From Ceratodon purpureus (taxonomy: Eukaryota > Streptophyta > Bryopsida > Pseudoditrichales > Ditrichaceae), in the NCBI GenBank assembly GCA_014871385.1, contig CM026422.1:12884831-12948830 (forward strand): 64,000 bases of DNA. The letters are read 5' to 3'. This document shows positions 9,727 through 64,000 of this stretch, in pieces. The position numbers and the translations under genes were made by a program. How positions within the stretch are numbered: the first letter of the stretch is position 1; every line of letters begins with the position of its first letter. The notes below the pieces were generated by a model. The model saw only the letters and a program-made list of their open reading frames with translations, was not told the DNA's origin and made no database searches.

Positions 9727-11490
9727 TCAGTATCGGCTAGTTCGGGATCCCCTCCCTCTCCCTCCACCTCCTTGCCGCCACATCCGCTGATTATAACTCA
9801 TGTACACTTTCAACATCTCACCTTGCGACTGGTGCTGCTTCACATTACAATGGATCCTAGTACACTCCTTCCCATCCTCCTCCGCTTCTTCTCTCAAATC
9901 ACCTTCCTCAATCTCACCTTTCTCCACTTCTAGACACTCGTCATAATCCGCCTCCCCTACCACCACAGCGTCCCCCTCCACAGCCCGCCGCTCCAGATCC
10001 TCCACCAGCGTCTGCAACGCAAGCTCTCTGTCGTTCTTGTGCTGGAACAGAAACTCGGTCACCTCCGCCGGCGTCACCTTCACATTCTCCTCCAGCAGGA
10101 GCTTCTGGACTCTCTCAAACGCCGGGTGGGCTTTCAATCCCAAGTAGTTCATGGCCAGCACTTTGAAGATGTCGAAGTTGCAGAACGACATGTGAATGTG
10201 CATGTCCATGCGGCCGGGGCGCAGCAACCCGGGATCTAGCTTCTCGATGTGGTTCGTGGTGAAGATTATGATGCGCTCGTTTCCACAACATGACCATAAC
10301 CCATCGCTGAAGTTCAGCAACCCTGAGAGCGTCACGCTGCTGCCGAAGGCAGCTTGCGCCTTCGGTGCCGTCTTCGGCTTCTCCTGAGGTTTTCCAACTC
10401 GTGTGCCGGTGAGATCTAGCGAGCAGTCGATGTCTTCGATCACGATTATGGATTTTGAGCTTGTGGATGTTAGGAGCATTTTGAGCTGGTTGTTGCTGGT
10501 TACCTGGTTGGAATGAGGAGCGATGTGTGAGATGATCGGATGGAAGTGGAGATGGGTTTAGAGATGGGCTGGGGAGGATTAACCCGTGGATGCGTTACCT
10601 GGGTGAGCTCGAGGTCGTAGATGTTGTAGCGCAGGCGGTTCGCCATGGCGGCGATGAGGGAGCTTTTGCCGGTGCCGGGAGGGCCGTAGAGGAGGTAGCC
10701 TCGCTTCCATGCGCGGCCGACGCGCTTGAAGTACGCTTCGCCCTCCATGTAGGATTGGAGGTCGGTCATGAGGCGGTGCTTGGAGTCGGGATCCATGGCG
10801 AGTGTGTCGAAGGTGGAGGGGTGGTGAAACGTGTGCGCCCTCCAGCGCTCGTTGTTGCAGCTGTAGAGGTAGAGGTCTCGCAGTTGGGTCTTGTACTCTT
10901 TGGCGCTGCGCGCTATGTAGTCCATGTAGGTCGTCTTGACGAAGTGTTTGTCTGCTTTCAGCATCTTGAGGACGTACTTGTTCTCGTCTCTCTCGCCGCC
11001 GTTTTGGCCCTTGGACTTCTCGGTTGAGAATGTCCACCACACCTTCACCCCCTCGTGATTCTCTGTCACGGTCTCCTCTCCTGTCACAAACAAAGTCTCC
11101 GGCTCGTGAGAAATCCCTTGGAATTGTGAGAGATTTTATCTGCATAAGAAGATAGTAATTGGAGTGAGAAAGGTCACCGAGGGCCTCACCTCCGAGCGTG
11201 AAGCTGATTTTCTTCGCATTTTCTTCCTGTGAGAGGTGCAAGTCATCAGCATCCTCAATCAGGTGCTTCGCTCGCAGGTGCATCTCCACGACGCGGTAGA
11301 GATTGTTTGTGCGCCGCTTGCTATCGAGCTCGTCGATATGAAACCGGCAGTAAGGATCCGATCCCCACAGCTTCTTCATCAACTTCTTCATCCAAAGATT
11401 CATGTAATTCTGAAACTCCGGTGGAAGAAAACCCCGGATGATCGTAACCAGTCCCATGAGTGACCACACATATGCCATAGAGGACATCAT
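9727..11490 (-). CDS. AAA-ATPase of the AATP1/ASD (BCS1-like) plant family
   Basis: Three exons on the minus strand, 11490-11190, 11080-10599 and 10503-9727, join in phase to 519 residues. An N-terminal hydrophobic segment (residues ~5-20) is followed by the AAA-associated domain with YRVVEMHLRAKH and EGVKVWW. Walker A is GPPGTGKSSLIAAMAN (near residue 233), Walker B is SIIVIEDIDCSLDLTG (near 280) and the second-region/arginine motif is FTTNHIEKLDPGLLRPGRMD. These identify a membrane-anchored AAA-ATPase close to BCS1, placed in the endoplasmic reticulum or mitochondrion in characterised plants; the substrate is not deducible. The C-terminus is an acidic stretch followed by a GGGGRGRGSR tail, variable in this family. 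The start at 11490 fits the family's hydrophobic N-terminus. No defect is visible. Confidence 0.95.
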
Positions 11491-26323: not shown

Positions 26324-29300
26324 ATGGAGTTCATGGGCGCGCCGCGCTTGTTGATTGTGTCGGATCTCGACCACACTATGGTCTGTCCCTACTTCTTAAA
26401 CCTGTAATGTGGAGAGTAGTTTGTGAGGCTTAGTGTGTGGTCGGAAGATGGGAGTTTTTGAAGTAGTGTGCAAGTGAGGTGTGGATTTGGAGAGAAATTC
26501 GTGGTTTTTTTGGAAATAAATTTGCAAGTGTGCAGAGTGAGGTGGAGTGGAGGGGAGGTTGTGAGGATTAATTTGGGATTTGGATTTTCTACATTTTTCT
26601 GCTGGAGTGTTTTTATGGCTCCTTTTGAGCTCTCGTGATCTGTTTCGGTAGTGTGAAGTGTTCGATCTCTTTGGTACAATTGGGAACCGCCGAGCGTGGT
26701 TTTTTTTTCTAGTAGTGTCCTGCCGGTGTTTGCTTTGTGGGGTGTCTGAACGGCAGCGCTGCATTGCATCTTAGTTATGGTGCACGTCTGGTTTCTCCTT
26801 CACCGATTGTGCTGTCGAATTGTAGTGTAGAGATATGGCTTGTGGGAGGGCTTCTATTGACAAATGGAAGGGAGAGTTTCTGACTAAATTCTTAAGGATT
26901 TTGTAAGCAACTACAACTAAAATGGCTGATTAAGAATTGTAAATTTCAGATTAATTCCGGGTGATAACGGCCAGGGTGACGAGAAAAAACTCGAGTTAAC
27001 TAAAGGCTACATGTGATGGGATGAGCAGTTTTTATTTATTTTTCGGCAATTTTGTTCACCAATTTTTATCTCTACAGGTGGACCATAAGGATCAATTGTC
27101 CTTGCTTCGATTTGGTGCGCTCTGGGAGTCGGAATTCAATCACGATTCCTTACTCGTGTACTCCACTGGAAGGTCCCCGACTATGTTCTCCGACCTACGG
27201 CGGGAGGTGCCTTTGTTGACACCAGGAATTGCAATTCTGGCTTGCGGATCTGAAATCTTTTACGGGGACACTATGACACAAGATTTTGGTTTTATTGATG
27301 AACTCAACAAAGGCTGGAATCGTGCAGCTGTTGAGGAGGTGGCCGCAGAAATGAATCTTAAATACCAGGTGCGAATTTGCACCTGTATCTGTGGCTCACT
27401 ATAAGTTTTGATGTGGGATGATTTTTTTTCTTTGTGAGAAGTCGTTTCTCAATCTTCTCATGGCGTCATGTTTTGGTTGCGTTACAGTGGATTAGTTGAT
27501 ATGACCGGTGGAATAGATGAACTTGTCTCAAGTTACGTGCACTTTGTCACAATCTGGCAGTGTGATTCAGAACAAAGGCCGCACAAAGTAAGCTTTCACG
27601 TCAGGAAGGAGGAGTCTGCGCACATCATGCCCATGCTCCGTGAAAAGCTAACAGCTAAAGGGGTAAGTTCAACATACTAATTGATGAACACAAGTTTTAT
27701 GACTTACATTTTTTTCTCCTTCCTATGTTTATAACGTTTCAACTGTAATACCCTCGTCTATCAAGCTTACAGTTCTTTATTATGTGAAGGATTGACGCAG
27801 AGGATATTAAGGCTTTATATTAATGATACGTAGTCTTGTTGTCTGTATTCAAGATTTTGCAAGGGCCGCACTTCGCCAGTGGGTGGTAATCATTTTGTAG
27901 CTTTTGTTTAGTGAAGATCTAGGACTGAGGTTAGATATTTGCAACTGCTAGTATGTTTACTTCACTAACAAAAATCTGTGATCGGCAGCTGGATTACAAA
28001 CTCATTTACAGTGGAGGATTGGATCTTGATGTTCTCCCTAGAGCTGCTGGCAAAGGTCAAGCTCTGTCTTATCTTTTGAAAAAGCTCAAAGCTGAAGGCC
28101 GCGCTCCTCAACAAACACTAGTCTGTGGGGATTCTGGAAATGACATCGAACTTTTTGGTGTGGACAACGTCTACGGCGTTATTGTGAGTCGCTAGTCCAC
28201 CCTCAAACGCAGACTGGGCTGTTTTTCGTACATGGCTTCTTAGATGACCTTTCATAGATTTGTCTTTGGAGGAAGATGGTTTGTTCTCTTGATTCCCTGC
28301 AATTTTTTCATTCTTCAGTAGATTTGGCACATGTAGTATCACTCTTTAACAACTAACTGGAGAAACAACAGTACTAGTCTTAAAACATTTAATTCAACTA
28401 AAGAAAGGATCTCAGTCTCATGGATAAGCATAAGTAGTGCTACACTTGCATCTGATTTATCTTCCAAGAGTATTTCATAATTTGTTAAGCTCTTTTTCTA
28501 CTGTCAATTAAAGGCAATCATGGTGAAGGATGTCATTTTTCTCTGACAATTCGAACTTGTTTTTCCTGGGTGAAGGTTGCGAATGCCCAAGATGAGTTGC
28601 TCCAATGGCATGCCGACCAACTCGGTGACAAGTCCCACATTTTCGTTGCAACAGAGAGGTGTGCAGCGGGTATTATCCAGGCCATGCAGCACTTTAATCT
28701 CCGACCAAATGTTAGTCCACGAGATATTAGTGTCCCACTTTCAGTTCATGACAAATTGGCTCCAAAGCCTGATGGTGGTGCTGTGTCTCGAGAGGTGGTA
28801 GAATATCTTTTGCTCACTGAGCAGTGGCTGCGAGGGGATATAGATGCCTCCGAAGAAGCGTTTAGAAGGCTGAAATTTGGCTTGGTGAGTTGCAACACTT
28901 CCACCTTATTTACTCAATTCCTTCAAGTAGTACGCATTCATATAACAATACTGCCATACTTTCCTTCTTGCCGAGCAATTTTGTATCTACATCGTTGCAT
29001 TGATTTTGAATGGGATGTTTGATCTTGTATTAAATCTCACCACGCATGTGGGTTGCACAGGCAAAGGAGTCGAATAGAGTATGCCCATGGGGCGTTATAG
29101 AAAACCCACATGAGGAGATAGACACCCTCCGCGCACAGCACGGTTCACAAAAAGGAAAACTCTTCTACATATGGGCAGATCGTGTCCGCTCTATTAAACT
29201 TAGTGACGACTCCTGGTTGGTTAGATTTGACAAATGGGAAAGATCAGGTGAGCCTCAATCATACACTTCACTGCTACCAAATGCCTTGGATTAAATCTAT

Positions 29301-44825: not shown

Positions 44826-44830
44826 TGCAT

Positions 44831-45109
44831 CTCCATAATTATGATGGGAATCTTTTATCTTCCAGATATTTGTTGGACGATTCTCATTGCATGATCCAAC
44901 ATAAGCTTTTTTTCCATCATCATCTCCATAATTATGATGAGAATCTTTTATCTTCCAGATATTTGTTGGACAATTCTTATTGCATGATCCAACATAAGCT
45001 TTTTTTCCATCATCATCTCCATAATTATGACGAGAATCTTTTATCTTCCAGATATTTGTTGGACAATTCTTATTGCATGATCCAATATAAGAGTTTTTTC
45101 CATCATCAC
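44831..45109. repeat. 93-bp tandem repeat, three units
   Basis: Units at 44831-44923, 44924-45016 and 45017-45109 share well over 90% identity. 93 is a multiple of three, so the minus strand stays open through all three and gives a 163-codon frame with the periodic motif GSCNKNCPTNIWKIKDSHHN. Copy 1 has a single eroded unit. I consider the frame a by-product of repeat length rather than a proven gene. Confidence 0.9.
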
Positions 45110-47522: not shown

Positions 47523-50500
47523 ATGGATAATGGCTATCCGCGAGGTATTGCTTGAGATATTGCTAAAGCACGTGCACATGTGTTCATTTTTTTTCTTTTC
47601 TTTGAATATTTTTTCACCTGATGGAGTCCTTAAAGCGTAGACGGTAGAATGTAATGTTTGATGTTCGAGGTACTTCATGCTTGGCCTTATTTACTAAACG
47701 GAGTTAACAATTTGCAGGAGAAAGTGATTTTTTGGTACCGAATGGGGACATTTTTGGAGATAGATATCAGAACTTTGGAAAGAGTGACAAACTTTGCAAG
47801 AAGCGATTGTCAGGCAGCCACCTGTCTGGCGAGACAGAGCGCAGAAGTAAGAAAAGCAAAAATTCCGCATCTGAGGATTCGACAGGGTTTGTAGGAACGA
47901 TGACGCCATATATATCGAAAGAGTCTGTCAAGGTCAAGCGAGAATGGGCACAATTCAAGTCCCCTTCTTCTCAAGATATCTCGAAAAAGAAGAATGGTAC
48001 TCGTGGAGGTTGTCGCATGGAGGTTCTGCTCTCCGCTCCATATGAAGATGATTTTTCGGAGGATGGTAAGGCTGGGTTTGGTGCAGCCAATGCAAGGAAC
48101 AACATACTTTCGTGGCTGATCCGAGCTGGGGCACTAGTGAAAGATCAGAAGTTGTTCTATAGGCACAAGGGCAAGAAGAACTTAGGGCATGGATGGGTGA
48201 CTAATGAAGGCGTACTTTGTGGATGTTGTAACGATGTCTTCTCTTTATCGTATTTTGAGGAGCATTGTGGCAGCAGATTGCATCGGCCATGCCAGAACAT
48301 TTTCGTGGATGGTGGCAAGTCTCTCACAGATTTACAAATGGAGGTTTTTCAGAAAGAAATTGATTTCACCTCGTCCGGTGTACATTTCAAAACAGGGTCT
48401 GGGAAAAGACGGAGATCTTCTAAAGATAAAGTGAAAGTGGAGGGGGATGGAAGCGATGATACGTGCGGAGTATGCGGTGATGGAGGTATACTTATCTGCT
48501 GTGATCATTGCCCATCAACGTACCACCTGGCATGCATGGAGATGCAGGTAAACCTTCATTACGTTGATTATTTATGCTCTTTTTAGATTTTCTGGTATTA
48601 GTGCTGAGGTTCTTCGTCCGAAATCAACGTCCGAGATTTATATGCCATCCATCGAGAAGTTGCATTAAACGCTCCTCTGTACGAGGCAGTTTCTTTGTTT
48701 CATTTTTAGATTCACATGAAATTTCTGAATGTTGTTCCAGGAAGTTCCAGCGGATAATTGGTACTGTCCAAATTGCCGCTGTGCGATTTGTGATGGAAGT
48801 CAGTTCAACGGAGATCAGAACGTGTTCAATGACCTGACGGTTCTCTTCTGCGATCAATGTGAACGTGAATGTAAGTGCCGGAAGGAAATAGTACGAACCA
48901 GCTTGATATCTGTACTCCGTTTTCTTCTGTTTGTGCTCAATACTAGATCTCCTCTAGGCGCGGGAGAAATAACAGATGCAGCATTCTATTATTATCATGA
49001 CCTCTTTGCTAGGTTACTTTGGGCGTAGGACAAATGCCCGTACTGTTTTCATTAGGGAACCGTTAATTTTGGAGACTTCGTGCCTTCATATTTCTTCTTA
49101 AGGATATTGAAGTTTAGAAGTAGGATTTTACGCTCTTGTTACTTCTGAGTAGAAATAACCGTTGTCATTCGTCATCATGATTTTACATTTCTTTGTCTGA
49201 ATGCTTGGATTGCGCTGCAGTTCATGTGAAGTGCTTGTACGAAAGGGGATTTCCAAAAATGGATGAGTGTCCTCAGGGGAGCTGGTTCTGCGGCCCATCA
49301 TGTACAGAGGTATGCCTTCCATGTTAGGGAGCTTGGAACTTTTTACTGTTTCATCCTACTAAGTTGCGGGGAGTTGGGTTCTTTGATTAGACTATTTTTC
49401 GTTGCTTCTGGCTTCAATACTTGCAGTGATTATTTTGTATCTGCTGATAGCAGTCGTATCAGGTCAACTTACGAAGTTAATCTGAATCTGCATTCATCAG
49501 CTGTATGTTAAGCTAGGAATAAAGATCACAAAGGGACTTTCTGTTTGGACTTTACCCGAAGATGACTACTTGAGTTCATTGAAATAATTATGATTTGGTG
49601 TTGAGAGCAGATTTATCAGAGCTTGCGGGGGTTGGTTGGTGTTACCAATAGCTTGTTTTCAGTGAGTAGCGGATTTTCATGGACACTCCTGAGATCTCAA
49701 GCGGAGGATTCGGATCCGAAGTCCGAAGGGGACAGAGAGCTAATGGCTGAGCATAATATCAAACTTTCTATGGCTCTAAGCGTAATGCAAGAATGCTTCA
49801 AGCCTATGATTGATCCACGCACTAATGTTGACCTGGTCACTCATGTTCTGTATAACAGGGGGTAAGCTTCTATTATTAAGCCAATGGCTTCTGGAGCGCT
49901 TAATATGCCAGTTTTGTACTCTTTTCAGTTCAGTATTTCTTTTCAGTTCATATCTTATTTTTCTAGAACTATGTCGGTGCTATTTTTGTTCATCACAGCC
50001 ACAGCCGTTAGGTCTAGGATTTTTCTTCAATAGTCCGTTTAAGTCCTGTTGTGATAATCCGTTCAAGGGTGCAAAAATCCTCTTGGATGCAAATCCTCTT
50101 GGATGCTTTTGTTCAAGTTAGACGGCAGAGGAAAGTAGTCTTCGTTACGATTAGGTTATTAACCTGAGTTAATATCTATTATTAAGTTAGGAGCTGTTAA
50201 AGTCAATTGGTCTGGAATAAAATCTTTAAACTGACTATTTGCCATGTTATCGTAAGCAGGTCTGACGTTAGTCGACTAAATTATCGAGGTTTCTACACCA
50301 TTATCCTAGAAAAAGAAGACGAGCTTGTGTCAGTAGCAACAATCAGGTACTTCACAGTTTTATGAAGTTAAGAGCACTTGGGGTTTTCCGATCTTGTGAT
50401 GATCGTCTGTTCCTTGTTGACTAGGGCTCTAGGTTTTGACTTTTTCAAAAATCTCTTTTATGGCTTTATCCTATTGTACCTTCCTTAGTGAAAGTATCAA

Positions 50501-53234: not shown

Positions 53235-54133
53235 CTACTCCAACTCGATGATCAGGGTGCACGTAGTGGAATTACACAGGACGAGTAGGAGGTAATTCCT
53301 TCCAGGGCTCACTCCTTGTTTTGAAGGTGCAAGTTTGTTTTCCTGACGTGATACTGTTGGGGTCGTCAATTTTGATGGCTGTAAGATAGTCAGACTGCTT
53401 GTCAGCACGTCCTTTGTACAGAGGCCACTCCAATTTTAATCCAGATTCATGGTATAAGTTGTCGGTTTTATGGCAGTGTGGTATGTGATCGTTTCGGAGT
53501 GTTTGAGTTAGATGATACAGTCCATAAATTAATGTGATGTAGTGCTCTGGTCGTTGCTGTGTACCTCTGTTGACCACTATGTAAGCCCCTAGAGTTCCAT
53601 TTTCGCCGACTGGGCTGTGGGGCTTAACGCATTAACCATGTAGCTTGTTTGGTCGTGAGTACCACTATTGTTTGGATGGGGGACTGACTTTCAATGATTC
53701 TGGGTAAGTGCACTATGAGATGTTGGCCTAAGAAGGTCTTTCATTATTTCTGGGTAAGACACTTCTCCTCTTGTTCCACCTTCCACCGAGCTACCACATG
53801 CGGGATGCTTCACCCTTTGACGCCCAAACTGAGGTCACTGGGTTGCAAAAACTGGAATGTACACGAGTAATCAGTGAGGACGGAGGTGGTCAGATTTTCT
53901 TGTCAAAAAGCATGGGGTGGGGATTTGAAGGTAGGAGTTGGCAATGCTTGTGTTATTGACGTGAATTAGTGGATGACGACCTCCCAGTCCAATTTACCTT
54001 CTCTTGTGATGCGTATTGCCCTTGAGCCACGTGTAAAGGTTTCTCTAAAAACAGAACGGGAGGGCTGACGTACATCTCCTTGAGGTCCGGCACATGACCG
54101 GGTTTCTCCGCTATCCAAGTATTGGCGGGTCCG
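53235..54133. other. 3' UTR and spacer before the tRNA cluster
   Basis: The first few hundred bases are probably the 3' UTR of the PHD-GNAT gene. The phrase TTCTGGGTAAG occurs twice (53698 and 53747). No gene is visible. Confidence 0.45.
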
Positions 54134-54582
54134 GGCTTCGTGGTGTAGTTGGTCATCAATGATTTCATTAATGACCAGTCCTTTGAGCTAGCTCTAATTT
54201 ATTTCCACTCTGATGTGCCTTCTTGCTTTTCCCTTATTGATTACTCCAGATTTCCTTGAGTTGGTTTCTAGGGTAGAGTAGGATTGCTACCAGTTTGGCT
54301 ACTTTATTAGAATCTCCATTAATTGTCTAGGCCAGTTACCGCTTTAGCTTTTGTAGGTTTTGCCTTCTTACAGCTTTAGCTTAGTTGGTTACTTTTGGTC
54401 ACCCCTGCAAAGGTCAACCAATGCTTATCTGACGCGTGGCGACGGCCGGTGCCCCCGGCCTCCTTGGTTTTTACCGAGGTTTTGTTTTCATTTCCTGTTT
54501 TAACCGCGGTGCGGAATTAAAAGTTGGTCATCACATCAGTCTAACACACTGAAGGTCTCCGGTTTGAACCCGGGCGAAACCA
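54134..54582 (+). pseudogene. tRNA-Val (AAC), split by an insertion
   Basis: Nucleotides 1-25 (GGCTTCGTGGTGTAGTTGG, then TCATCA) lie at 54134-54158. The remainder lies at 54534-54582: CATCAGTCTAACACACTGAA, then GGTCTCCGGTTTGAACCCGG and GCGAAACCA. Joined by eye they give a 74-nt tRNA with anticodon AAC in a CTAACAC loop, a CAGT/ACTG anticodon stem, an intact TPsiC arm and an acceptor stem GGCTTCG/CGAAACC with one C-A mismatch. Between the halves is a 363-bp insert flanked by a repeat of AGTTGGTCATCA (54147-54158 and 54522-54533). The split lies in the D-loop, inside the Pol III A box, so the gene should be dead. Confidence 0.9.
54159..54521 (+). mobile_element. 363-bp insert in tRNA-Val, likely truncated LINE tail
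   Basis: The insert sits exactly between the two AGTTGGTCATCA copies. It is non-coding and ends GCGGAATTAAA, comparable to the ...GGGTTTTAA end of the LINE copies in the neighbouring tRNA-Glu, though the rest of the sequence is not obviously the same subfamily. Size, target duplication and orientation (3' end facing the tRNA body) fit a 5'-truncated LINE. Confidence 0.65.
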
Positions 54583-54602
54583 CATGATACCCGCCGGGTA
54601 TA

Positions 54603-54626
54603 TCTATAATAGTCTAGTGGTTAGGA
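54603..54626 (+). pseudogene. tRNA-Glu (TTC) 5' fragment
   Basis: TCTATAATAGTCTAGTGGTT followed by AGGA resembles nucleotides 1-24 of plant tRNA-Glu; the D arm is exact, while the acceptor strand (TCTATAA) departs from the usual TCCGTTG. It begins 20 bp after the end of tRNA-Val. The rest of the gene is found at 62704, past two LINE copies. Confidence 0.75.
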
Positions 54627-54903
54627 GTATTGGGTTTGATTTCCCCTTGGTACTCGATTTCGGGTACCCACCTGCTGCTTTGCTTTGGGTGGCTTGAGGT
54701 TGCGTTGTGGTTCTCCGTGACGGGTTCCCGCCTGGTGGTTTTGCCGGGTATGTTGCTTAGGTTCTCAGTTCTGAGTTCCCGCCCCGAGGTTGTTTGGGGT
54801 GTTCCCCTGGGGTTGGTTCCCTGGGGGTGGCCTTTGTGGCCTGTGTGTTCCGGGACTTCGTTCCTTTGTTTCTCATTAATCGATTGCCTGAAGATGGGTT
54901 TTA
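54627..54903 (+). mobile_element. 5'-truncated LINE copy A in tRNA-Glu
   Basis: 277 bp, starting GTATTGGGTTTGATTTCCCC and ending GATGGGTTTTAA, are about 94% identical to the last 276 bp of the long LINE (62412-62687). The copy is flanked by AGTCTAGTGGTTAGGA at 54611-54626 and again at 54904-54919. It is a short 3'-end insertion with a 16-bp target duplication. Confidence 0.85.
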
Positions 54904-55330
54904 AGTCTAGTGGTTAGGAAGTCGGATCAGGCGGTGGCTGTCTAGAGCAGAGGTTGGCTTTCGGTAGTTTCACAGAGAGAGAGCATGAGTGTTGTGAGCA
55001 CAGCTTCTCGCTTGCGGGAGGAGGCTTGCAACGTGCATGGTGAGCGCTAGCTTTGCGCGCGACGTGCGACGTGCAAGAGCTGAAGCCCCGGAAGCCGCGG
55101 GGCTAGGGTGAGGAGTTCATGAGACGGGTGATCGCAGCAGCTGTAGTGTGATCGAGGGAGCTTTCTGAGGTCGGAGGTGGCAAATGCGGAGTGCGAGCTC
55201 ATTTGAAGACAAGTGAAGACAGAATTGGAGGTGATTTGTGCGCCGTTGGCGATGGCGACGGGCGTCTTTCAGTAGTGCAGATGAGCTCCGAGGGTTCATG
55301 AGTGGCCTAGGAACGGCTTTTTCCGGGCTA

Positions 55331-55354
55331 GGGTATCTGGTCTAGTGGTATGAT
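55331..55354 (+). pseudogene. tRNA-Pro 5' fragment inside the LINE 5' region
   Basis: GGGTATCTGGTCTAGTGGTA followed by TGAT equals nucleotides 1-24 of plant tRNA-Pro apart from one or two acceptor-stem bases. It stops at the same D-loop position as the Val and Glu breaks and is followed by GGTATGAT again. The rest of a tRNA-Pro is nowhere in the window. It may mark the true 5' junction of a LINE once inserted in tRNA-Pro. Confidence 0.7.
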
Positions 55355-55469
55355 GGTATGATGAGCGGAGCGATGCAGAGCTCCAAGAAGCGGCGGTGGT
55401 GTCTTTGATTCCGTTTTTTCGCTCTTGATGCTTTTAGTTCACTAATTTTTATAATTTTTTGCTTTTGTC

Positions 55470-56684
55470 ATGGCTCATGCCTCGAGTGCAGTAGGGGTCG
55501 TTCCAGTAGTTGCTTCGAGTGAGCAAGATGTAGTAGGCGCAGATGAGGAGCGAGGGGCGATTGCACAAGAGGATACGAGGATGGCCTTAGCGGATCAAGA
55601 CAGACCTACAGACGGCCGGATGCACGCGCATTCTACCCATGCAAGATTAATTCCTAAGGGTGTTGCTGCACAGTCACCATACGATGAGATACCAGAATTA
55701 GTTCTTTCTTCCCAGGAACTCGCGATATTTGAATCTTGCCGCTTATCTGCCTCTAAGCTCACTGTCTTAGGACAGTTACCGGGCCCTAGCCTTGGCTATC
55801 CTGCTCTCCGTGAGTAGGCCAAATCTAATTTGGACAGCTCCTTTCGAGCATGTGCTCTTATCGGGAATGGCTTTTTTGAAGCTACATTCCACACTGAGGA
55901 AGGCGCACAACATGCCCTGTCCCATGTATTCTTTTTCGAGGGTGAGAAGTTCCATTCTCCCCGTAAAATCCCAATTTCTCTCTAGATAATCCGAACTCTG
56001 CTCTGTTACTGGCGCACCCAGTTTGGATGTTAAAACATCTAGTCTGCGTGTTAAAGTATTAGTGAAGGATGTTACTCTTATTCCAGAGCGGATCTGCCTC
56101 AGAGGGGACACGCCTAATTCCTTCACAGAACACAAGATTTTAGTGACCGGTCATCCAATTCAGTGCGCGAGATGTGATAAACCGGGTCTCAATTCCAACA
56201 ATTGCTCCGTCCAGGTTGGGGAGGGTAAAAGATTGGTGCAGAACCCTCGACAACAGCACCGAGAGAGACATGTGCTTCGTTCTGATCACAAGAAGCATCC
56301 TAACCCCCATGAGAGGGGTCGGTCCAGAGAGAGGTCTCGAGTTTCGGAAGATCGTAGACCCCCACAACGTCACCAAGGTGGGAGATCAAGAACCCCAGCG
56401 GCCCACACTAGACCCTCAAGGGGGAGGTCTGGTGGCCAGAATCCTCGTAACAGAGACCCTCGCCCAAGACCTAGAGAGGATCTTGTGCGCCATGATACTC
56501 CTCAGGCGAAAGTCTCGGGGGTCCCCCTTCTTCTTGGTAAGGATCGTAAGGTCCATTCTGGTGTTCTTTCAGAGGAAGTTAACTCCACCCAGCGAGGCGC
56601 TGATCTTGATTCTTCCACGAAGACATCGTCTCCACAGAAGATTCAAAAAGCTACGGCTGAGACTCCACAGTTACCTCTGAATTA
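55470..56684 (+). pseudogene. LINE ORF1 (nucleic-acid-binding protein), broken
   Basis: The first frame starts MAHASSAVGVVPVVASSEQD and runs to TAG at 55815; the same frame continues past it with ALIGNGFFEATFHTEEGAQH and FFFEGEKFHSPRK, the layout of the DUF4283 domain of plant LINE ORF1, to a second TAG. The frame then shifts by one and gives HPIQCARCDKPGLNSNNC, a CxxC..C zinc knuckle in which the His is replaced by Leu, and an Arg-rich tail (RGRSRERSRVSEDRRPPQRH). ORF1 proteins coat the LINE RNA. At least two stops and one shift make it non-functional. Confidence 0.75.
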
Positions 56685-57045
56685 GGGGACTCAGGGTTCT
56701 GATTTCGGAATCTCTCCAGAAGTTCAGCCCTCTTTAGTATATCCCACTATTCCTGATCCTGTACCAGTGAAACCGCTTCATGATCCAGCCCAGGCTTTTC
56801 AACCTGGCTTGGTTTTTGGCTCTTTGAGCCAGCCCAAGTTACCTAAGGCACCACCCAGAACTCCCTTGAAGAACAGAGAAGTCAGATTGTCTTCGGTGCA
56901 GAACAGATCGTCTTCGGTTGAGAGGCTTCCGGTAGACGCGGAACCAAATTTTGGTTTCATCTGGCATTCCGTTGGGGCTAGCCACAGAAGCTCTGACACG
57001 ATTCAACGGAGTAATACAATTTCGTCGTAGACGAAACGAGGCCAC

Positions 57046-57930
57046 ATGACTTCTATTATTCCTTATTCTTTTTGGGATACAGTACAGATGCCCCCAATGC
57101 ATCACACGACGATCAAGAGAGGGAGAGTATTCCCGATCCTTATGACGTGCATAGGGGAATCCAAGGATTTCTCTACTTTCAGGATTTTATCGGAGAACAA
57201 CTCTCCTTTAAAACACCCTGTGGTCATGAGACAACTTACAGTGCTTGATTCTCAAGCATGTTGGTCCTTGGAGGAGGCGAAGCAGCTTATTGTCAATGAA
57301 ACCTCGTTAGCATTGCGCAAGGTGATTGTTAATCGACACAATCAATTTCACCCAATTCGGCAGTGGAATGACGCAACATGGTATTATACCTAGGTTTGCG
57401 ACCAGAATGGTGGGAGTCACTGCGTTATCATCCCGATCTTGGCCATGACAACGCGGGACATCCCCTTATAGAAGCCTGATCGTTACAAATGGTCCTCGGT
57501 TTCTCCTGCACTTAAATCACACCTGATGAGTTCGGCTGAGAAGGGCAGCGTTCAGCAATTCCCCCAGTCACTCATGTCTCATCTCAGGGCTTTGATAGGG
57601 GAGCACTTGAACGAGGACGACCTCTCTCCCCCGAGACCGGATTTGAAGAAGATGAAACAGCAGGTCTCTGACCTGGGTTCCACAGAGTAGCACCCTTTGG
57701 GCTGCGGTGACTCCCCTGAGGAGGAGAAGCGTGTGCAAGACATGCTGAACAAGGTTCCGAATATATCCGCTATTGATTATTTCGAACCTCGTGATCGCCT
57801 CATGGAACGTCCATACCTTAGGGCAGGGCGTCCAGGGCATTCGGAAACGTTGCGATGTTCGCAACTTCCTCAGAAAAGCAGATCCTCAGCCATAGATTTT
57901 ACTGTTTCAGGAGCACCACCTGCCGATTGA
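57046..57930 (+). pseudogene. LINE inter-ORF / ORF2 N-terminal region
   Basis: Short frames in changing phases occupy this part. A frame at 57697-57930 gives VQDMLNKVPNISAIDYFEPR. It lies where the start of ORF2 should be, just upstream of the endonuclease, but the N-terminal endonuclease motif is not recognisable. Confidence 0.35.
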
Positions 57931-57949
57931 AGACTGCCTAAATCAGACT

Positions 57950-58642
57950 GACCAGCTTCAATTCAAAGGGGGACTTAGCATTTGGAACAATGCTCTTTAT
58001 GAAGCGGAGGGGGGCGGGTTTTTTGGTGGCACTGGGATTTCCCTCTCCCGTGAGACTGTTGCTTGTTTGGTTAGCTCAATAGTGGTGATAGAAGGCCGTG
58101 CTCAGTACATTATTCTAAATGTCAAGGGCCTTCACATAGGTGTGCTTAACATCTATGCTCCAAATACTACAAGTGAACGTTCCAATTTTTGGAATGCACT
58201 GGCTCACCATGAATTTCCGGAAGTAGAATGAATCGTGTCAGGTGATTTTAATATGATCGAGACTCAAGACGATCGGAGTCAAGGCTTCAACTCCCGGAAC
58301 ATGTCCAACAGAGAGCTCAACGCGTAGTCAAGATTGGCTTTGGCTCTCGGGGTTGAAGATGCATTCTATGCACCGGAATACAGGCGGATCGGTTCCAAAC
58401 GCTTCACTTGGAAGCGGGAGAGACCGTCGTTTTGGTCCACGTTGGACCGCTTTTATACCTCTATGTCTCTGCGTGCTAAGGGTGGGGCTCACGGCATTTG
58501 GCCTCACCTGGATTACATATCCGACCATGCTGGGGTATTTTTGTCAATTCCATTGGCAAAACGTAAAGGGGGGAAGAAAGCCTTTTTTAACAAAGGCTTG
58601 GTCTCAAACATGAGTGCCATGGACAAGTTTGTGTCTGCATAA
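57950..58642 (+). pseudogene. LINE ORF2 endonuclease domain, broken
   Basis: Reading across in-frame stops, the segment shows FKGGLSIWNNALYE, then ILNVKGLHIGVLNIYAPNTT, IVSGDFNMIETQDDRSQG (the GDFN catalytic motif), ALGVEDAFY..RRIGSKRFTW and finally LDYISDHAGVFLSI (the SDH motif). These are the ordered motifs of the apurinic-like endonuclease that nicks target DNA. One TGA precedes IVSGDFN and a TAG lies near 58328. In this element the endonuclease would be the candidate for tRNA target choice. Confidence 0.85.
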
Positions 58643-58651
58643 AAAGGTGCT

Positions 58652-60116
58652 ATGAGTAAGGCTGGCAATCACTTGAAGGGGATTAGGGTTTCTATAGCCT
58701 TTGAGCAAATTAGGAGACTCAGCGCTCAAATCTCGGCTGATCAGAAACAGAAGGCCAGGGACACTTATAAGGAGCAATTCAAGGAGGTCGAACTAGTTGA
58801 AGTTGCTCTAGAATTGGACTGGTCGGATTTGGACGCATGGGAGGACCTCAATTCCGCCCAAGCAGCGTTGGAGGAGATTCGGTTACAGAAATTAGAAGCG
58901 TCCAAGAATGCGACAGCGGCCCGCTGGATTCAGGTGGGTGATAGATGTTCAAAGGAGTTTTTTGAATTCCATAAGGATCAAAAAAGCAAGACTACCATCA
59001 ACGATTTGCAAGATGGTGATCGCCTTCTCACGGAGGAGAAGGATATCAATGCATTCGTCTATAGTTATTACAAGGAACTATATTCAAATGACATGGCGGT
59101 GGAGAGTAACCTTGAGGGCAGAGCTCGGTGCTAGGAGAGCGTCCCACGATTAATTTTCGAGGACATCAACGAAATCCTTACAGCTCCTATCAGATTGGAA
59201 GAAGTGCTTACAGCACTCAAGGAGATGCCGGCGGATAAAGCCCCGGGTTACGACTCAATCCCCAAGGAGTTAATTCTAGAACTCTGGGATGAGATAGGAG
59301 ATGACATGCTGGAATTTATCCAGGAGTCGCTTGACACCGGCTCCCTGGAGAAATCTTTTAAATACGGCTTAACTTCGTTAATCCCTAAGGAGGGTTCCTT
59401 ATCTGCGATATGGAATTTCCACCCTATCTGTGTTCTGTTGGCAGTGTACAAGCTTATTGCTAAAACACTTGCGAACAGACTTCAACCTTTTCACCCAAGC
59501 TATATACAGCCCACCCAGACTGTCTTCGTAAAGGAACATAATATCCCTATATAACGACCTCGTTATATAGGGATGCTACTTCTTCCATCTTGGTTAACGG
59601 TAATTGACTTCCTCCTTTCCCAGTGGAAAGATCAGTCACGCAGGGTTGCTCGTTGGCACCCTACTTGTACTTGTTCTTTTCCAACCTCTTTTAACTCATA
59701 TGCTTAACGACCCAGCGTATGGGGTGGTTGGGTTCACTCTCCTGGATGGCACTGTAGTTAGACTATAGTGCTTTGCAGATGATACTGCACTTTTTCTCCG
59801 AGGAAGTCCTGAGAACTTACAAAGAGCCTTCGACACTATAGAACTTTTCTGTAGTGCGTCTGGGGCTAAACTAAATTGGCACAAATCCTGTGCATTGTGG
59901 GTCTCGGATTCTCCGAGGTCGTGGACTTGGGGTACCGACAAGGGCTTGCAGTGGCTTGCAGATGGACATACCACCAGGTACCTGGGCTTTCCATTTGGCA
60001 TCAATTTGAACCAAACGGATAAGGACTCGAAAGTACTCCAACACATTAGAAGTAAGTTGAATACATGGTCTAGTAGGTCCTTGTCGCTGGCAGCAAGAGT
60101 CCTTGTTTCAAATTAG
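58652..60116 (+). pseudogene. LINE ORF2 reverse transcriptase domain, broken
   Basis: After a linker with coiled-coil character (58652-59134: LSAQISADQKQKARDTYKEQ, SKEFFEFHKDQKSKTTINDL), the RT begins with EEVLTALKEMPADKAPGYDS, then YGLTSLIPKEGS, CVLLAVYKLIAKTLANRLQP, a gap with frame changes, MLNDPAYGVVGFTL and the catalytic CFADDTALFLRG (FADD in place of YADD), then GAKLNWHKSCALWVSD and RYLGFPFGI. These are RT motifs in the right order for the L1 clade. Stops at 59134 and near 59765 and a disordered stretch at 59550-59690 show it is dead. Confidence 0.9.
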
Positions 60117-60250
60117 GTTATCTTAGCCAACATGTGGTATCTTGCCAGTTGCTGTGATTTCTCAAAAAATGTCCTCCTTAGGGTGCAGGCGCTTGTGAGA
60201 AACTATATCTGGAGTGGTAACTCAGAGGGGCGCCCGAGAGCGAAGGTGGC

Positions 60251-62220
60251 GTGGAACACAGCGATGGTTCGTACGATCAAGGCAGGTATTTGATTTTTGA
60301 CCCGTTGACTCAAACGCAGGCTCTATTAGCGAAGATGATGGTGAGAGCTCTTGTCCCCGGGCCTGAGCCCTGGAAGACGTTACTTCGCCACATGATAGAC
60401 CAGATAAAGTTGAGGAGGGATGGTGATTGGGGCTCTACAGCTGCATGGCTGTGTTCAGCCCTTAAGATTAGTCCTGTGGGCTCATCGCTCTGGCTTGCGA
60501 TTTGGAGTGCATGGGCAGCTGTGCGCCCTGGCATTCAAAAGCTCAAGTCGGAAACTCAGGCTGAGAGATGAAGGAAACCCTTATATCTCAATCCTGAAGT
60601 GACTCTTGAGAATTCTCTCCCTCTAGGAGTTGAGAAAAAATCTCTCTTTCGGAATTGGTCCTGTAAAGGGCTGAATTCCGTTGCTGATCTTAGAACAGAG
60701 GACAACCGTAGCTGGTTGGAAGCTTCTATTCTCCAACGCCGCACCAGATCACACAACACCCCTGCAACGAGGCAGAAGGTAATCAGCAGTACAGAGGACT
60801 CGGACTTGGCTATTTCGGAGACCATTGTCGTTGGGATGTGGTTCCAGAGCAGCGATCCCAGATGGGCGTACAATTATTTTCATGTACTTAAATCGGAAGG
60901 GGACGATTGGTTAGCCCGTGAGTACACAAGAGATATTACCACAGAGCAGCTCCATAAGGATGATGGACACCCAGTACTTTTGCCGCAAGGTGGAGTAACG
61001 GAGGCCAGGATTTTGATCCGCTCTAAGTCTGGTGAGGTGATCAAGTTTAACCCTAAGGATCGAGTTGACGATGGTTTTCAGGTGTGGACTTATAGATTGG
61101 AAGAGATTTCCAAGCTCTCCTTTGATCCAAAGGAGCGGGGCTAGAGAAGACAGGGAGTAATTAAGCCGGGACATTTCTTTGAATATTCCACAAAGAGAGG
61201 GTATAGAATAATTCAGAAGACTCTTTACAGACAGCTCAAGTTCGATAAGTGGATGGAGGATTGTGGTTATTCAGATCAGCAACGCAAGGGATTTTTTAAG
61301 AAGTTATGGCACCCCTGGCTCCCCAGGAAGGTGTCCTCAATGGTTTGGTTGACGATTGCTGAAGGACTGCCTCTAGGGGCATGGCGCAGGAGGATTGGTC
61401 ATACAAGGATCTGCCCCCTATGTCCAGGAAACGTACTACAGACAGCCGAGCATGGCCTGCATACTTGCCGGGCTGTACACGTAGCTTGGAAGAAGCTCCG
61501 TTTACATCACTTCAGTGCAGGAGTTTCACTTCCTCTCATTAGTTGGCACGATGTTCTTTAAGGAGAGATTGGCCGACCTCAGGCTCGTGGCGGTGGCCCA
61601 GGAACGATTAACCCGGACGATGACATTTCCTGGGACACTGGCTCTCCATGTGCAATCAACAAATACACCCCATGGCACATCATTCGATGTGCCTTTCTGT
61701 GGTATATATGGTGTCATCACTGCAACCACAATCTGAAGGATGGAGTTTTCCATATTGGAGTAGCTTTGTATAAAGCTTGGCAGTGCACAGTGCAAGTCAG
61801 AATGGCAGCATAGATACAACTGCAGAAATTTTGTAAGAAACAAAATTTTCCAAGCATGCAGAAATGGAGGCCGCTTTTACTTCCATTTGGTGTCAGGAAG
61901 AACTCTTCTGCTCTAATGACTGCAGCAAACCCCGTTGGCATCCAACGCCCCACCCGGATTTTCTCCCGCGTGACTTGGCAAACAGATTTTCTTCCTCTCG
62001 TATTATGAGGAATAATTTTGTTTCAATGGATGCCAGCTCCTCTGAGTCGGCGAGTTCTTCTCACTTGGAGCAGGTCGATTCCATCGATTAGATCCCCCTT
62101 CCTCATGTGATTAAGGAAGTTGAAGACTTGGCTGAGGCTATTATCGGCAAACTCATCGACGACATAGAAGCAGAAGTCGAAGACGAGGACTTCGATCCGG
62201 ATCCTGATCCTGCTCAAGGC
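60251..62220 (+). pseudogene. LINE ORF2 C-terminal region with RVT-type zinc finger
   Basis: From 61253 the frame gives KLWHPWLPRKVSSMVWLTIA, then RIGHTRICPLCPGNVLQTAE and HGLHTC, the Cys/His module seen at the C-terminus of plant LINE ORF2 (zf-RVT). After a frame change, 61668-61815 gives PWHIIRCAFLWYIWCHHCNH and WQCTVQVRMAA, and the frame at 61864-62091 continues to a Ser/Glu-rich end. The upstream part (60599-61141) is a less conserved connecting region. Confidence 0.75.
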
Positions 62221-62411
62221 TGATCATTTGTCCCTGCTGGATGACATTCAAGGCTCCCCGTTTTCTTGCTTCTTAAAGCATAATCCGGTCCCCCTTCCAA
62301 TCACCTTAGGCCCCCTGTTGTTTAGGTGACAAATTTTTGCGGTTTTCCGCTCACATGCAGACGTAGTTTTGTCTGTTCTTGGTTCTCTTCGTAGGACCCC
62401 GCTTCGTGATT

Positions 62412-62687
62412 GTATTGGGTTTGATTTCCCCTCGGTACTCGATTTCGAGTACCCACCTGGTGCTTTGCTTCGGGTGGCTTGAGGTTACGTTGTGGTTCTC
62501 CGTGAGGGGTTCCCGCCTGGTGGTTTTGCCGGGTATGTTGCTTAGGTTCTCAGTTCTGAGTTCCCGCCTCGAGGTTGTTTGGGGTGTTTCCCTGGTGTTG
62601 GTTCCCTCGGGTGGCCTTTGTGGCCTGTGTATTCCAGGACTTCGTCCCTTTGTTTCACATTAATCGATTGCCCGAAGATGGGTTTTA
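62412..62687 (+). repeat. LINE 3'-terminal 276 bp, repeated in copy A
   Basis: Starts GTATTGGGTTTGATTTCCCC and ends GGGTTTTAA. Differences from 54627-54903 amount to about 17 substitutions and one indel. The segment resembles an LTR by position, but target duplications around each copy show independent LINE insertions. Confidence 0.85.
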
Positions 62688-62740
62688 AGTGTAGTGGTTA
62701 GGATACCTCGCTTTCACCCAGGCGACCCGAGTATGATTGG
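62688..62740 (+). pseudogene. tRNA-Glu (TTC) 3' fragment
   Basis: AGTGTAGTGGTTAGGATACC, then TCGCTTTCACCCAGGCGACC and CGAG, covers the D arm, anticodon arm (TTC in CTTTCAC) and variable region of plant tRNA-Glu. The anticodon stem has one mismatch (CCTCG/CCAGG). The TPsiC arm beyond 62728 (TATGATTGG) is degenerate and the acceptor strand is not identifiable. Together with 54603-54626 it is one gene split by 8 kb of LINE DNA. Confidence 0.8.
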
Positions 62741-63122
62741 AACGAGAATTGCTATGACGAGGTGATGAAGCTTGGGAAGGGTGCTGATTATCCCTTTGCG
62801 GTGTTTCTTGCCGACTTGGAGTTGCCGTATAACAGTTATGGATGTTGCTTTGCAAATCCCATTACCGTTGACACAACTTCGGAGGAGATTTCAACTTTGT
62901 CTTTTTTGTTTGATTCTCTGGGTGGTCGACCCGGGTTGCTCCTACTGAAGCCATTACTGTTGATAGTCTTGCAGTGGTCCAACTTGTTGGGGGGGTCTTG
63001 ATTGCGTCGACTCCTGATGTTTTGGGTCCAGCTGCAGGTGCAATCGAGGAAGTCCTGGTGGACATGGCGCTGGCGGCGGTGAAGGATTCTCTGTCAAAGC
63101 ATGAGGCATGGAGCGAGCAATA
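62720..63122 (+). other. Unassigned coding-like fragment
   Basis: A long open frame starting within the tRNA-Glu fragment reads RPEYDWNENCYDEVMKLGKG, then FAVFLADLELPYNSYGCCFA and NPITVDTTSEEISTLSFLFD. At about 62925 coding character moves to another frame: RVAPTEAITVDSLAVVQLVG, then AAGAIEEVLVDMALAAVKDS, ending at TAG 63120-63122. Composition is clearly protein-like. I cannot name it; it may be a broken exon of a host gene or part of another transposon. Confidence 0.35.
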
Positions 63123-63748
63123 GTTGCTCTTGAAGGAGGCAATCCAACTGATAGTGATTGATTTCTGCTCATTCTGTACGCCTATTTAGGGTTGCAAGTT
63201 TGTAATTCGCCTCTTCGTGTGACTTGCCTTTAGATATCGTGTCGGTGCAGACTCCATGATGATGCTGTCGGTTTGATTAGAATCTGCAGATTAGTAGACT
63301 TATGCCTATATTTTGCAAAGGAGGGAAAATAGAAAAACTTGACAATGATATCCTATTAATCCCGTTTTTGATATTCTATCAAAAAGTGCATATTGTCCAT
63401 GTGGATAAGGGTCATCTTGTAATTTATGGCATTTTTGCTAACATGTTGTTTGATTTTGGTAGATGGATGTTGAAACCTTCTTCAATGCTATGATTGAAGC
63501 ACGTGTCTCAATAGAAGCATATTAGATCATTGACCTATTTTTTGACAAAATTACATGGTGAGTGTATAAATGACTTTAATAGCTAAAGAATTAGAGCGAG
63601 CCCTTGGGTCTAACTTCTAGAGAATAACTTTTGAAAATTCATAACTCATTCATACATTATCCAAATGATGGATATTTTGGTATGTAAGAATCCTCTCAAA
63701 ATGACCCAAAAGCTTCCAAGTTTGTTTGACTTTGAAAAAGTGTACGGA
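63123..63748. other. AT-rich spacer
   Basis: No gene recognised; the frame at 63302-63493 has no family resemblance. Confidence 0.5.
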
Positions 63749-63773
63749 TGCGGTGAGCGTGGATCGAACACGC

Positions 63774-63813
<40 letters not shown>

Positions 63814-63821
63814 GAAAGTCC
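63749..63821 (-). pseudogene. tRNA-Phe (GAA) with a non-pairing 5' end
   Basis: On the minus strand the sequence AGCTCAGTTGGGAGAGCG, then TCAGACTGAAGATCTGA (anticodon GAA) and AGGTCGCGTGTTCGATCCAC, then GCTCACCGCA is that of plant nuclear tRNA-Phe from nucleotide 9 onward. The first seven bases (GGACTTT, from 63821 downwards) do not pair with the 3' acceptor strand TCACCGC and do not match the usual GCGGGGA. It is therefore a truncated tRNA-Phe relic, a class that is very common in plant genomes. Confidence 0.85.
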
Positions 63822-64000
63822 CAATCAGGGATGAATTGAGAACAACGAAACCAATCACAAACGAATGAAAATCATCCAAAAGTAACCGCCGTTGCGGCCC
63901 AACCAGAGCGGCACACAGGGCAAAGCGAGTCGCAAACTACGGCAACCTAGGAGGACAGAACAACACTACAATGCCGACCAAGAGGACAGACAGCACAAAC

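Follow-up and report, generated by a model that had tools for sequence, protein, structure and literature searches.

Why should neighboring transfer RNA (tRNA) genes be broken by foreign DNA in the same arm, and two of them at the same canonical nucleotide? The question is raised by a block of DNA from the plant Ceratodon purpureus, which lies between position 54134 and the edge of a 64,000-nucleotide stretch (assembly GCA_014871385.1, contig CM026422.1, positions 12,884,831 to 12,948,830 of the forward strand; hereafter the window, with positions counted from its first letter). Here genes for tRNA-Val, tRNA-Glu, and tRNA-Phe are all broken in the D-arm, the region of the A box, and two of the inserts belong to one family of long interspersed nuclear elements (LINEs). 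We consider it probable that the block records repeated, site-specific integration of non-long-terminal-repeat (non-LTR) retrotransposons into the D-arm (A-box) of plant nuclear tRNA genes. The inserts, the duplications beside them, the junction positions, and the protein domains can be read directly from the DNA and carry this reading.

Broken tRNA genes and duplicated D-arms

The tRNA-Val(AAC) gene lies on the plus strand in two parts. The 5' part, from nucleotide 1 to canonical A24, occupies 54134-54158 and is followed by a 363-bp insert (54159-54521), beyond which a second copy of the D-arm (54522-54533) leads into the remainder of the gene, so that the stretch from nucleotide 14 onward covers 54522-54582. 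The D-arm repeat AGTTGGTCATCA, at 54147-54158 and again at 54522-54533, represents a 12-bp target duplication. Joining the 5' part to 54534 onward restores a tRNA-Val(aac) that ARAGORN accepts as complete, with a single mismatch in the acceptor; in the filled site, with the insert in place, the program finds no tRNA. The body agrees with the reference as well, with 54 of 57 positions (54522-54578) identical to nucleotides 14 to 70 of Val-AAC. The tRNA references used here are Val-AAC, Glu-TTC, Pro-TGG, Phe-GAA, and Ile-AAT, and canonical numbering was assigned from the ARAGORN cloverleaf and from alignment of the D-arms.

Several features of the Val site deserve mention in their own right. At the 5' junction of the insert, 54150-54177 forms a hairpin in which TGGTCATCAATGA, made up of target D-arm and 4 nucleotides (nt) of the insert, is followed 2 bases on by its near-perfect inverse TCATTAATGACCA; 12 of 13 positions pair, and none of 5,000 shuffles did as well, an arrangement suggestive of snap-back, or of a pairing step, at that end. 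An A-box-like stretch, TTAGCTTAGTTGGTTA, lies within the insert in the same orientation (54376-54391) and matches nucleotides 7 to 22 of Ile-AAT at 15 of 16 positions (E = 0.20). The pattern TRGYNNARTNGGT has three plus-strand matches in the window (54141, 54377, and 60066) and none on the minus strand. The insert may be composite, or the A-box-like stretch may be due to chance. The spacer between the Val and Glu genes measures only 20 bp (54583-54602) and includes, by eye, the palindrome-like ATACCCGCCGGGTAT.

The tRNA-Glu gene has been entered twice. Its 5' part, nucleotides 1 to 24, lies at 54603-54626 on the plus strand, and nucleotides 10 to 24 match Glu-TTC at 15 of 15 positions. Next come a 277-bp insert (54627-54903), a middle copy of the D-arm (nucleotides 9 to 24, 54904-54919), an insert of 7,768 bp (54920-62687), and a third copy of the D-arm (62688-62703) that continues into a degenerate tRNA-Glu body ending at 62748, all on the same strand. 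The 16-nt D-arm is thus present three times, as AGTCTAGTGGTTAGGA at 54611-54626 and, identical at 16 of 16 positions, at 54904-54919, and in the one-change version AGTGTAGTGGTTAGGA at 62688-62703. The 277-bp insert is a 5'-truncated LINE copy that retains the 3' end only. It aligns to the last 276 bp of the large insert (62412-62687) with 261 identities, 15 mismatches, and 1 gap, and it is therefore not a recent duplicate; the alignment score of 472 was equaled by none of 300 shuffles, and this is the sole alike pair among the foreign 3' ends. Two inserts of the same family consequently occupy the same nucleotide of the Glu gene. The gene itself has decayed, with 36 of 38 positions (62692-62729) matching nucleotides 13 to 50 of Glu-TTC and nucleotides 1 to 8 matching poorly (4 of 8, by eye).

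Two smaller features lie in the LINE 3' end. Three diverged 41-nt units occur at 54649-54800, two of them matching the reference unit at 63% and 71% identity with spacings of 60 and 51, and the large copy includes the near-palindrome GGTACTCGATTTCGAGTACC (by eye).

A third broken gene, a tRNA-Phe(GAA) that was absent from the first-pass annotation of this block, lies on the minus strand. Nucleotides 9 to 73 are found at 63749-63813 and match Arabidopsis Phe-GAA at 65 of 65 positions; the Rfam tRNA model matches 63757-63813 on the same strand at 43.8 bits (model positions 9 to 63). Nucleotides 1 to 8 are missing, and in their place is foreign DNA (63814-64000) that continues past the edge of the window. 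There is no CCA after A73 and there is a T run downstream, as expected of a genomic tRNA gene rather than a reverse-transcribed mature tRNA. ARAGORN finds no tRNA in the Phe stretch, and a bacterial promoter and terminator scan near it gave nothing informative.

The junctions fall at closely related positions. The upper strand was cut between A24 and nucleotide 25 in both Val and Glu, and a partial tRNA-Pro sequence within the large insert, described below, ends at canonical nucleotide 24 or 25, its last T being ambiguous. The lower-strand nick precedes A9 in Phe and at both Glu insertions, and A14 in Val. Every one of these tRNAs resumes with AG, and the nicked step would therefore be CT|A on the lower strand; in Glu, the tRNA may alternatively resume 2 bases later, with AG possibly being the LINE end. 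Both Glu inserts have the LINE in the sense orientation of the tRNA, and the same would apply to Val and Phe if those flanks are LINE ends. Among random pairs of positions in the window, a shared run of at least 12 bases was seen once in 500,000, compared with the 12- and 16-nt duplications here. The interruption of the Val and Glu genes in the D-arm or A-box, the repetition of the D-arm beyond the insert, and the return of integration to one canonical position inside tRNA genes had all been put forward in the first-pass annotation, and the coordinates and duplications bear them out.

An L1-type element without a poly-A tail

By the domains predicted from its sequence, the element in the large insert is an L1-type LINE, as had been proposed earlier. 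An open reading frame 1 (ORF1) region with a broken frame (55471-57687) includes the cysteine-containing stretch CARCDKPGLNSNNC; no Pfam family matches it at E = 0.1, and the one match at E = 0.63 is meaningless. ORF2 begins with an apurinic-like endonuclease domain (57797-58528), which matches Exo_endo_phos at E = 3.3e-5 and 24.2 bits, 0.3 below the cutoff of 24.5. The same domain aligns with L1 endonuclease chains in PDB (2v0r and 8sp5; best E = 1.8e-5), and the alignment retains the QE-HL, GDFN, and SDH stretches. A reverse transcriptase region in more than one frame follows (58742-59993; RVT_1, E = 9.4e-8), with FADDTALFL at 59772-59798, and the part from endonuclease to reverse transcriptase matches human L1 ORF2p at E = 1.3e-24. 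Among solved structures the reverse transcriptase is most like that of L1; ORF2 gave nine matches up to E = 1, none of them named R2 and one named only RNA-directed DNA polymerase (8c8j). The C-terminal zinc domain zf-RVT (PF13966) lies at 61277-61489, with E = 3.8e-7 and 31.1 bits against a cutoff of 27.5; this domain is typical of plant LINEs. Downstream of the reverse transcriptase, zf-RVT is the only domain at or above the Pfam cutoff, in a search that was not dedicated to restriction-like endonucleases. All of these features lie on the plus strand. The large copy is dead, because its coding frames are broken by stops and frameshifts. A 32-nt near-palindrome within the reverse transcriptase region (59543-59574, 93.75% identical to its own reverse complement) is probably a local rearrangement in this dead copy.

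The LINE has no poly-A tail. It ends in ...GGGTTTTA directly before the D-arm, and the Val insert and the Phe flank end in ...AATTAAA and ...ACTTTC, respectively.

The 5' end of the large insert carries sequence of another kind. A G-rich segment of 411 bp (54920-55330; 38% G), unlike the LINE body, is followed by a 24-nt 5' half of a tRNA-Pro gene (55331-55354), both on the plus strand. Positions 55338-55354 match nucleotides 8 to 24 of Pro-TGG at 17 of 17 positions, and the whole half matches at 22 of 24 by eye. Its last 8 bases, GGTATGAT, are repeated once at 55355-55362, directly before the LINE body. A Pro 5' half cut at the same nucleotide had been noticed previously as part of the block; it is indeed present, but it lies inside the large insert and not beside it. 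The simplest account would be that a parent copy resided in a tRNA-Pro gene and that its transcript started upstream, carrying along the 411 bp and the Pro half (5' transduction). The 411-bp segment is probably a transduced flank or a 5' leader, and its similarity to the LINE body does not exceed that of shuffles. We rejected this segment as a second LINE 5' end, with shuffles scoring as high in 13 of 100 (first 146 bp) and 44 of 100 (whole element). We also considered whether the Pro half marks one more LINE end joined to a D-arm, and set this aside because the DNA before it is G-rich and not T-rich and because nucleotides 1 to 8 fit Pro at 6 of 8 positions by eye.

Both copies of the LINE-family 3' end that blastn detects in its 64 kb adjoin a tRNA D-arm, and copies at non-tRNA sites, which had been named beforehand as an observation that would speak against target specificity, are absent from it. 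A tblastn search for other LINE remnants elsewhere in the window, which could have provided non-tRNA control sites, reached a best E of 1.1. ARAGORN finds no tRNA gene in the whole window as it stands, and the single Rfam match that exceeds its gathering score is a tRNA. Six further Rfam matches in 53500-64000, at E up to 10, fall below that score; one of them is a weak tRNA (54508-54582), and none is a ribozyme. Two ORF2 pieces, used as single-sequence queries that detect close relatives only, had 12 pattern matches in viral contigs and 23 in prokaryote contigs, none confirmed in either, and a junction pattern had no match in viral contigs.

Elsewhere, the window includes genes for an At3g28540-like AAA ATPase (9727-11490, minus strand), a sucrose-6-phosphate phosphatase (27021-29022), and a protein with a Tify-binding domain, whose PHD finger scores slightly below the cutoff (47732-48586). 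The phosphatase and the Tify-binding domain point to a plant host. A 93-bp tandem unit is present three times at 44828-45108 (96% matches); its minus strand can be read through as a repeated peptide.

How the insertions may have arisen

Target-primed reverse transcription would account for what is seen, because the 12- and 16-base duplications, the 5'-truncated copy, and the apurinic endonuclease all fit it. The endonuclease would nick the lower strand at CT|A, just before tRNA A9 (or A14), and the exposed 3' end would prime reverse transcription starting at the extreme 3' terminus of the LINE RNA, which a small terminal hairpin may hold in place. A cut of the upper strand at canonical nucleotides 24|25 would then leave nucleotides 9 to 24 (or 14 to 24) duplicated. 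Recognition of the D-arm DNA sequence itself is the most likely basis of target choice, since Glu and Pro, the tRNA types tied to the LINE family, share the core GTCTAGTGGT, and since the second Glu insertion, whichever came second, met a D-arm flanked on one side by LINE. The family may have a preference for these tRNAs.

A number of observations weigh against site-specific integration or blur its outline. The sample amounts to two to four events in one 64-kb window: two insertions of one family at Glu, one at Val without an assigned family, and one at Phe of which only one side lies within the window, the other side being beyond its edge. The lower-strand nick precedes nucleotide 9 in Glu and Phe but nucleotide 14 in Val, so that there is no single fixed phase. 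ARAGORN was given four test stretches and accepted one, the joined Val site; removal of the inserts, which the first-pass annotation had suggested as a check, thus restores a recognizable tRNA at Val, whereas the joined Glu site, a degenerate gene, is rejected.

Kinship of the foreign 3' ends, for which shuffles were made by resampling dinucleotide transitions, is also uneven. The three inserts at the shared site had all been taken for LINE, and this holds for the 277-bp and ~7.8-kb inserts. The 363-bp insert, however, shows no similarity to the large LINE in local alignment (294 of 300 shuffles scored at least as high) or to the 277-bp copy (237 of 300), and against the Phe flank 30 of 300 shuffles did as well. 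With its last 60 nt anchored at the end, the fraction of 500 shuffles scoring as high was 0.582 for the large LINE, 0.334 for the 277-bp copy, and 0.094 for the Phe flank. LINE nature is therefore established for the 277-bp and 7.8-kb inserts only, and the Val insert is a candidate LINE. The Phe flank may likewise be a LINE 3' end. Local alignment does not connect it with either LINE copy, since 169 of 300 shuffles scored as high against the large LINE and 214 of 300 against the 277-bp copy. When its last 60 nt are anchored at the end, the result is slightly better, and the fraction of 500 shuffles scoring as high is 0.092 (large LINE) and 0.026 (277-bp copy).

In base composition the Phe flank, with 9% A and 41% T, resembles the LINE 3' end. 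A criterion of at most 12% A and at least 37% T, set after the values had been seen and applied to overlapping 187-bp windows, selects 12 of 20 windows in the last 290 bp of the LINE. It selects none of the 669 windows in the LINE body and, counting both strands, 14 of the 10,944 windows outside the block; in the Val insert, the final 187 bp fall outside it. In minimum-energy folds of the last 78 nt, a 4-bp terminal hairpin lies 4 nt from the junction in the large LINE (62670-62683, plus strand), 7 nt in the Val insert, and 5 nt in the Phe flank, and the best fold of the 277-bp copy has none. By a criterion picked after the folds had been seen, three of the four ends tested carry such a hairpin, compared with 45 to 50 per 1,000 shuffles of each and 71 of 1,500 random positions. 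Overall fold energies are unremarkable for the LINE (z = -0.67) and its short copy of 277 bp (0.06); the Val insert has a z-score of -2.25 and the Phe flank one of -1.71. By analogy with one plant L1 lineage, the shared hairpin weakly suggests a common template-recognition element.

A bolder version of site-specific integration is conceivable, although we regard it as doubtful. Several separate plant LINE families would share the D-arm/A-box as their landing site, each with preferred tRNAs (Glu and Pro; Val; Phe), and would be kept there by RNA that reads through into the D-arm, its tail pairing with the nicked lower strand and so aiming reverse transcription at the next tRNA gene. Homing via the target sequence would then replace the poly-A. 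If this is true, all three tRNA genes recognized in the window are its victims.

Targeting by the RNA polymerase III (Pol III) machinery, in which TFIIIC or TFIIIB brings the LINE to tRNA genes and the endonuclease cuts locally, as reported for Dictyostelium TRE5, is in our judgment unlikely. The targets are indeed Pol III genes cut in the A-box region, and the ORF1 protein of TRE5-A contacts TFIIIB (PMC5911963). However, TRE elements sit outside the gene, whereas the cut here is nucleotide-precise and inside it. The order of events at Glu is no more favorable: with the large copy inserted first, what remained as a target for the other was nucleotides 1 to 24 followed by LINE, with no B box near; with the 277-bp copy inserted first, nucleotides 1 to 8 were already gone.

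We give little credence to a single compound event at Glu. One transcript would have brought in a LINE 3' end and a Glu D-arm together with the 411-bp segment, the Pro half, and the body of the LINE, and the two Glu LINE ends would then not be independent insertions. Transduced or switched sequence in the large copy is already implied by the Pro half and the 411 bp before the LINE body. Nevertheless, such a transcript could only come from a source in which a LINE 3' end already adjoined a Glu D-arm, which leaves the specificity in place, and the middle D-arm corresponds to the duplicated 16 nt and nothing more (16 of 16).

Chance, or a chromatin preference by which LINEs landed in a cluster of tRNA genes with no choice of sequence, draws on the few events and the closeness of the tRNA genes to one another. 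It is very improbable given the identical canonical upper cut at 24|25 in Val and Glu, the Glu nucleotide used twice, and the Phe gene, 1 kb past the Glu body and on the opposite strand, broken in the same arm. That the D-arm phrases belong to the element, as a tRNA-derived end like that of a short interspersed nuclear element (SINE), and not to the target is hardly credible: the Glu phrase does follow both LINE ends, but in Val, Glu, and Phe the D-arm is that of the gene concerned and runs on into its body, and at Val the phrase stands on both sides of the insert, which already contradicts for Val this possibility that the first-pass annotation had raised against itself.

Comparison with known tRNA-associated elements

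LINEs specific for tRNA genes are known outside plants, NeSL-1_TV from Trichomonas and the LIN elements from planaria. In the parts of the published accounts on which this section draws, NeSL-1_TV (tRNA-Pro), LIN15_SM (tRNA-Arg), and LIN25_SM (tRNA-Glu) belong to lineages with a restriction-like endonuclease (PMC4640811). The earlier comparison of this block, limited to elements that insert beside tRNA genes, was accordingly too narrow. The element described here resembles these LINEs in targeting tRNA genes; they are non-plant and have a restriction-like endonuclease, whereas it combines an apurinic-like endonuclease with zf-RVT.

Insertion inside tRNA genes is also practiced by Dada DNA transposons. 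Perkinsus families duplicate nucleotides 8 to 13 in the A box, adjoining the nick sites seen here, and each has its own tRNA, while the choice in fish is not always strict (PMC3706591, PMC8869645). Dada elements differ in having a DDE transposase and duplications of 6 to 7 bp, compared with a reverse transcriptase-encoding LINE and duplications of 12 to 16 bp at this locus. The dictyostelid TRE5 and TRE3 and NLTR-A and NLTR-B are non-LTR retrotransposons associated with tRNA genes; TRE elements carry an apurinic endonuclease and are listed as L1. All of them insert ~4 to ~300 bp outside the tRNA gene (PMC5911963, PMC5006619), in contrast to nucleotides 24|25 inside it.

Keno, Mutsu, and Dewa, of the Tx1 clade, provide another parallel. 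These zebrafish examples of target-specific LINEs are directed to U2, to 5S, and to a tRNA-Leu spacer, respectively (PMC3706591, PMC4640811). They and other target-specific LINEs have strict small-RNA-gene targets, and the Tx1 clade carries an apurinic endonuclease; Dewa, unlike the element here, lies in a spacer and not inside the tRNA. Plant L1-clade LINEs share the L1-type endonuclease and reverse transcriptase. One of their lineages has a conserved 3'-end stem-loop, and almost all flowering-plant L1s end in poly-A, whereas the ends described here lack poly-A and adjoin a tRNA; the term "tRNA gene" does not occur in that paper (PMC3747384).

Our literature search, whose coverage excluded most subscription journals and preprints, found no L1-type plant LINE with an apurinic endonuclease inside tRNA genes. 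Since targeting inside tRNA genes has already been published, the new part is its combination with an L1-type plant LINE. Such a LINE with a nucleotide-precise tRNA site would give rise to tRNA pseudogenes, would offer a starting point for delivering DNA to specific sites in plants, and would allow a test of how LINEs that lack poly-A select the position at which they start. It would also add an apurinic-endonuclease counterpart to the animal and protist LINEs and to Dada, and it would suggest that unrelated mobile elements have repeatedly arrived at the A box as their target.

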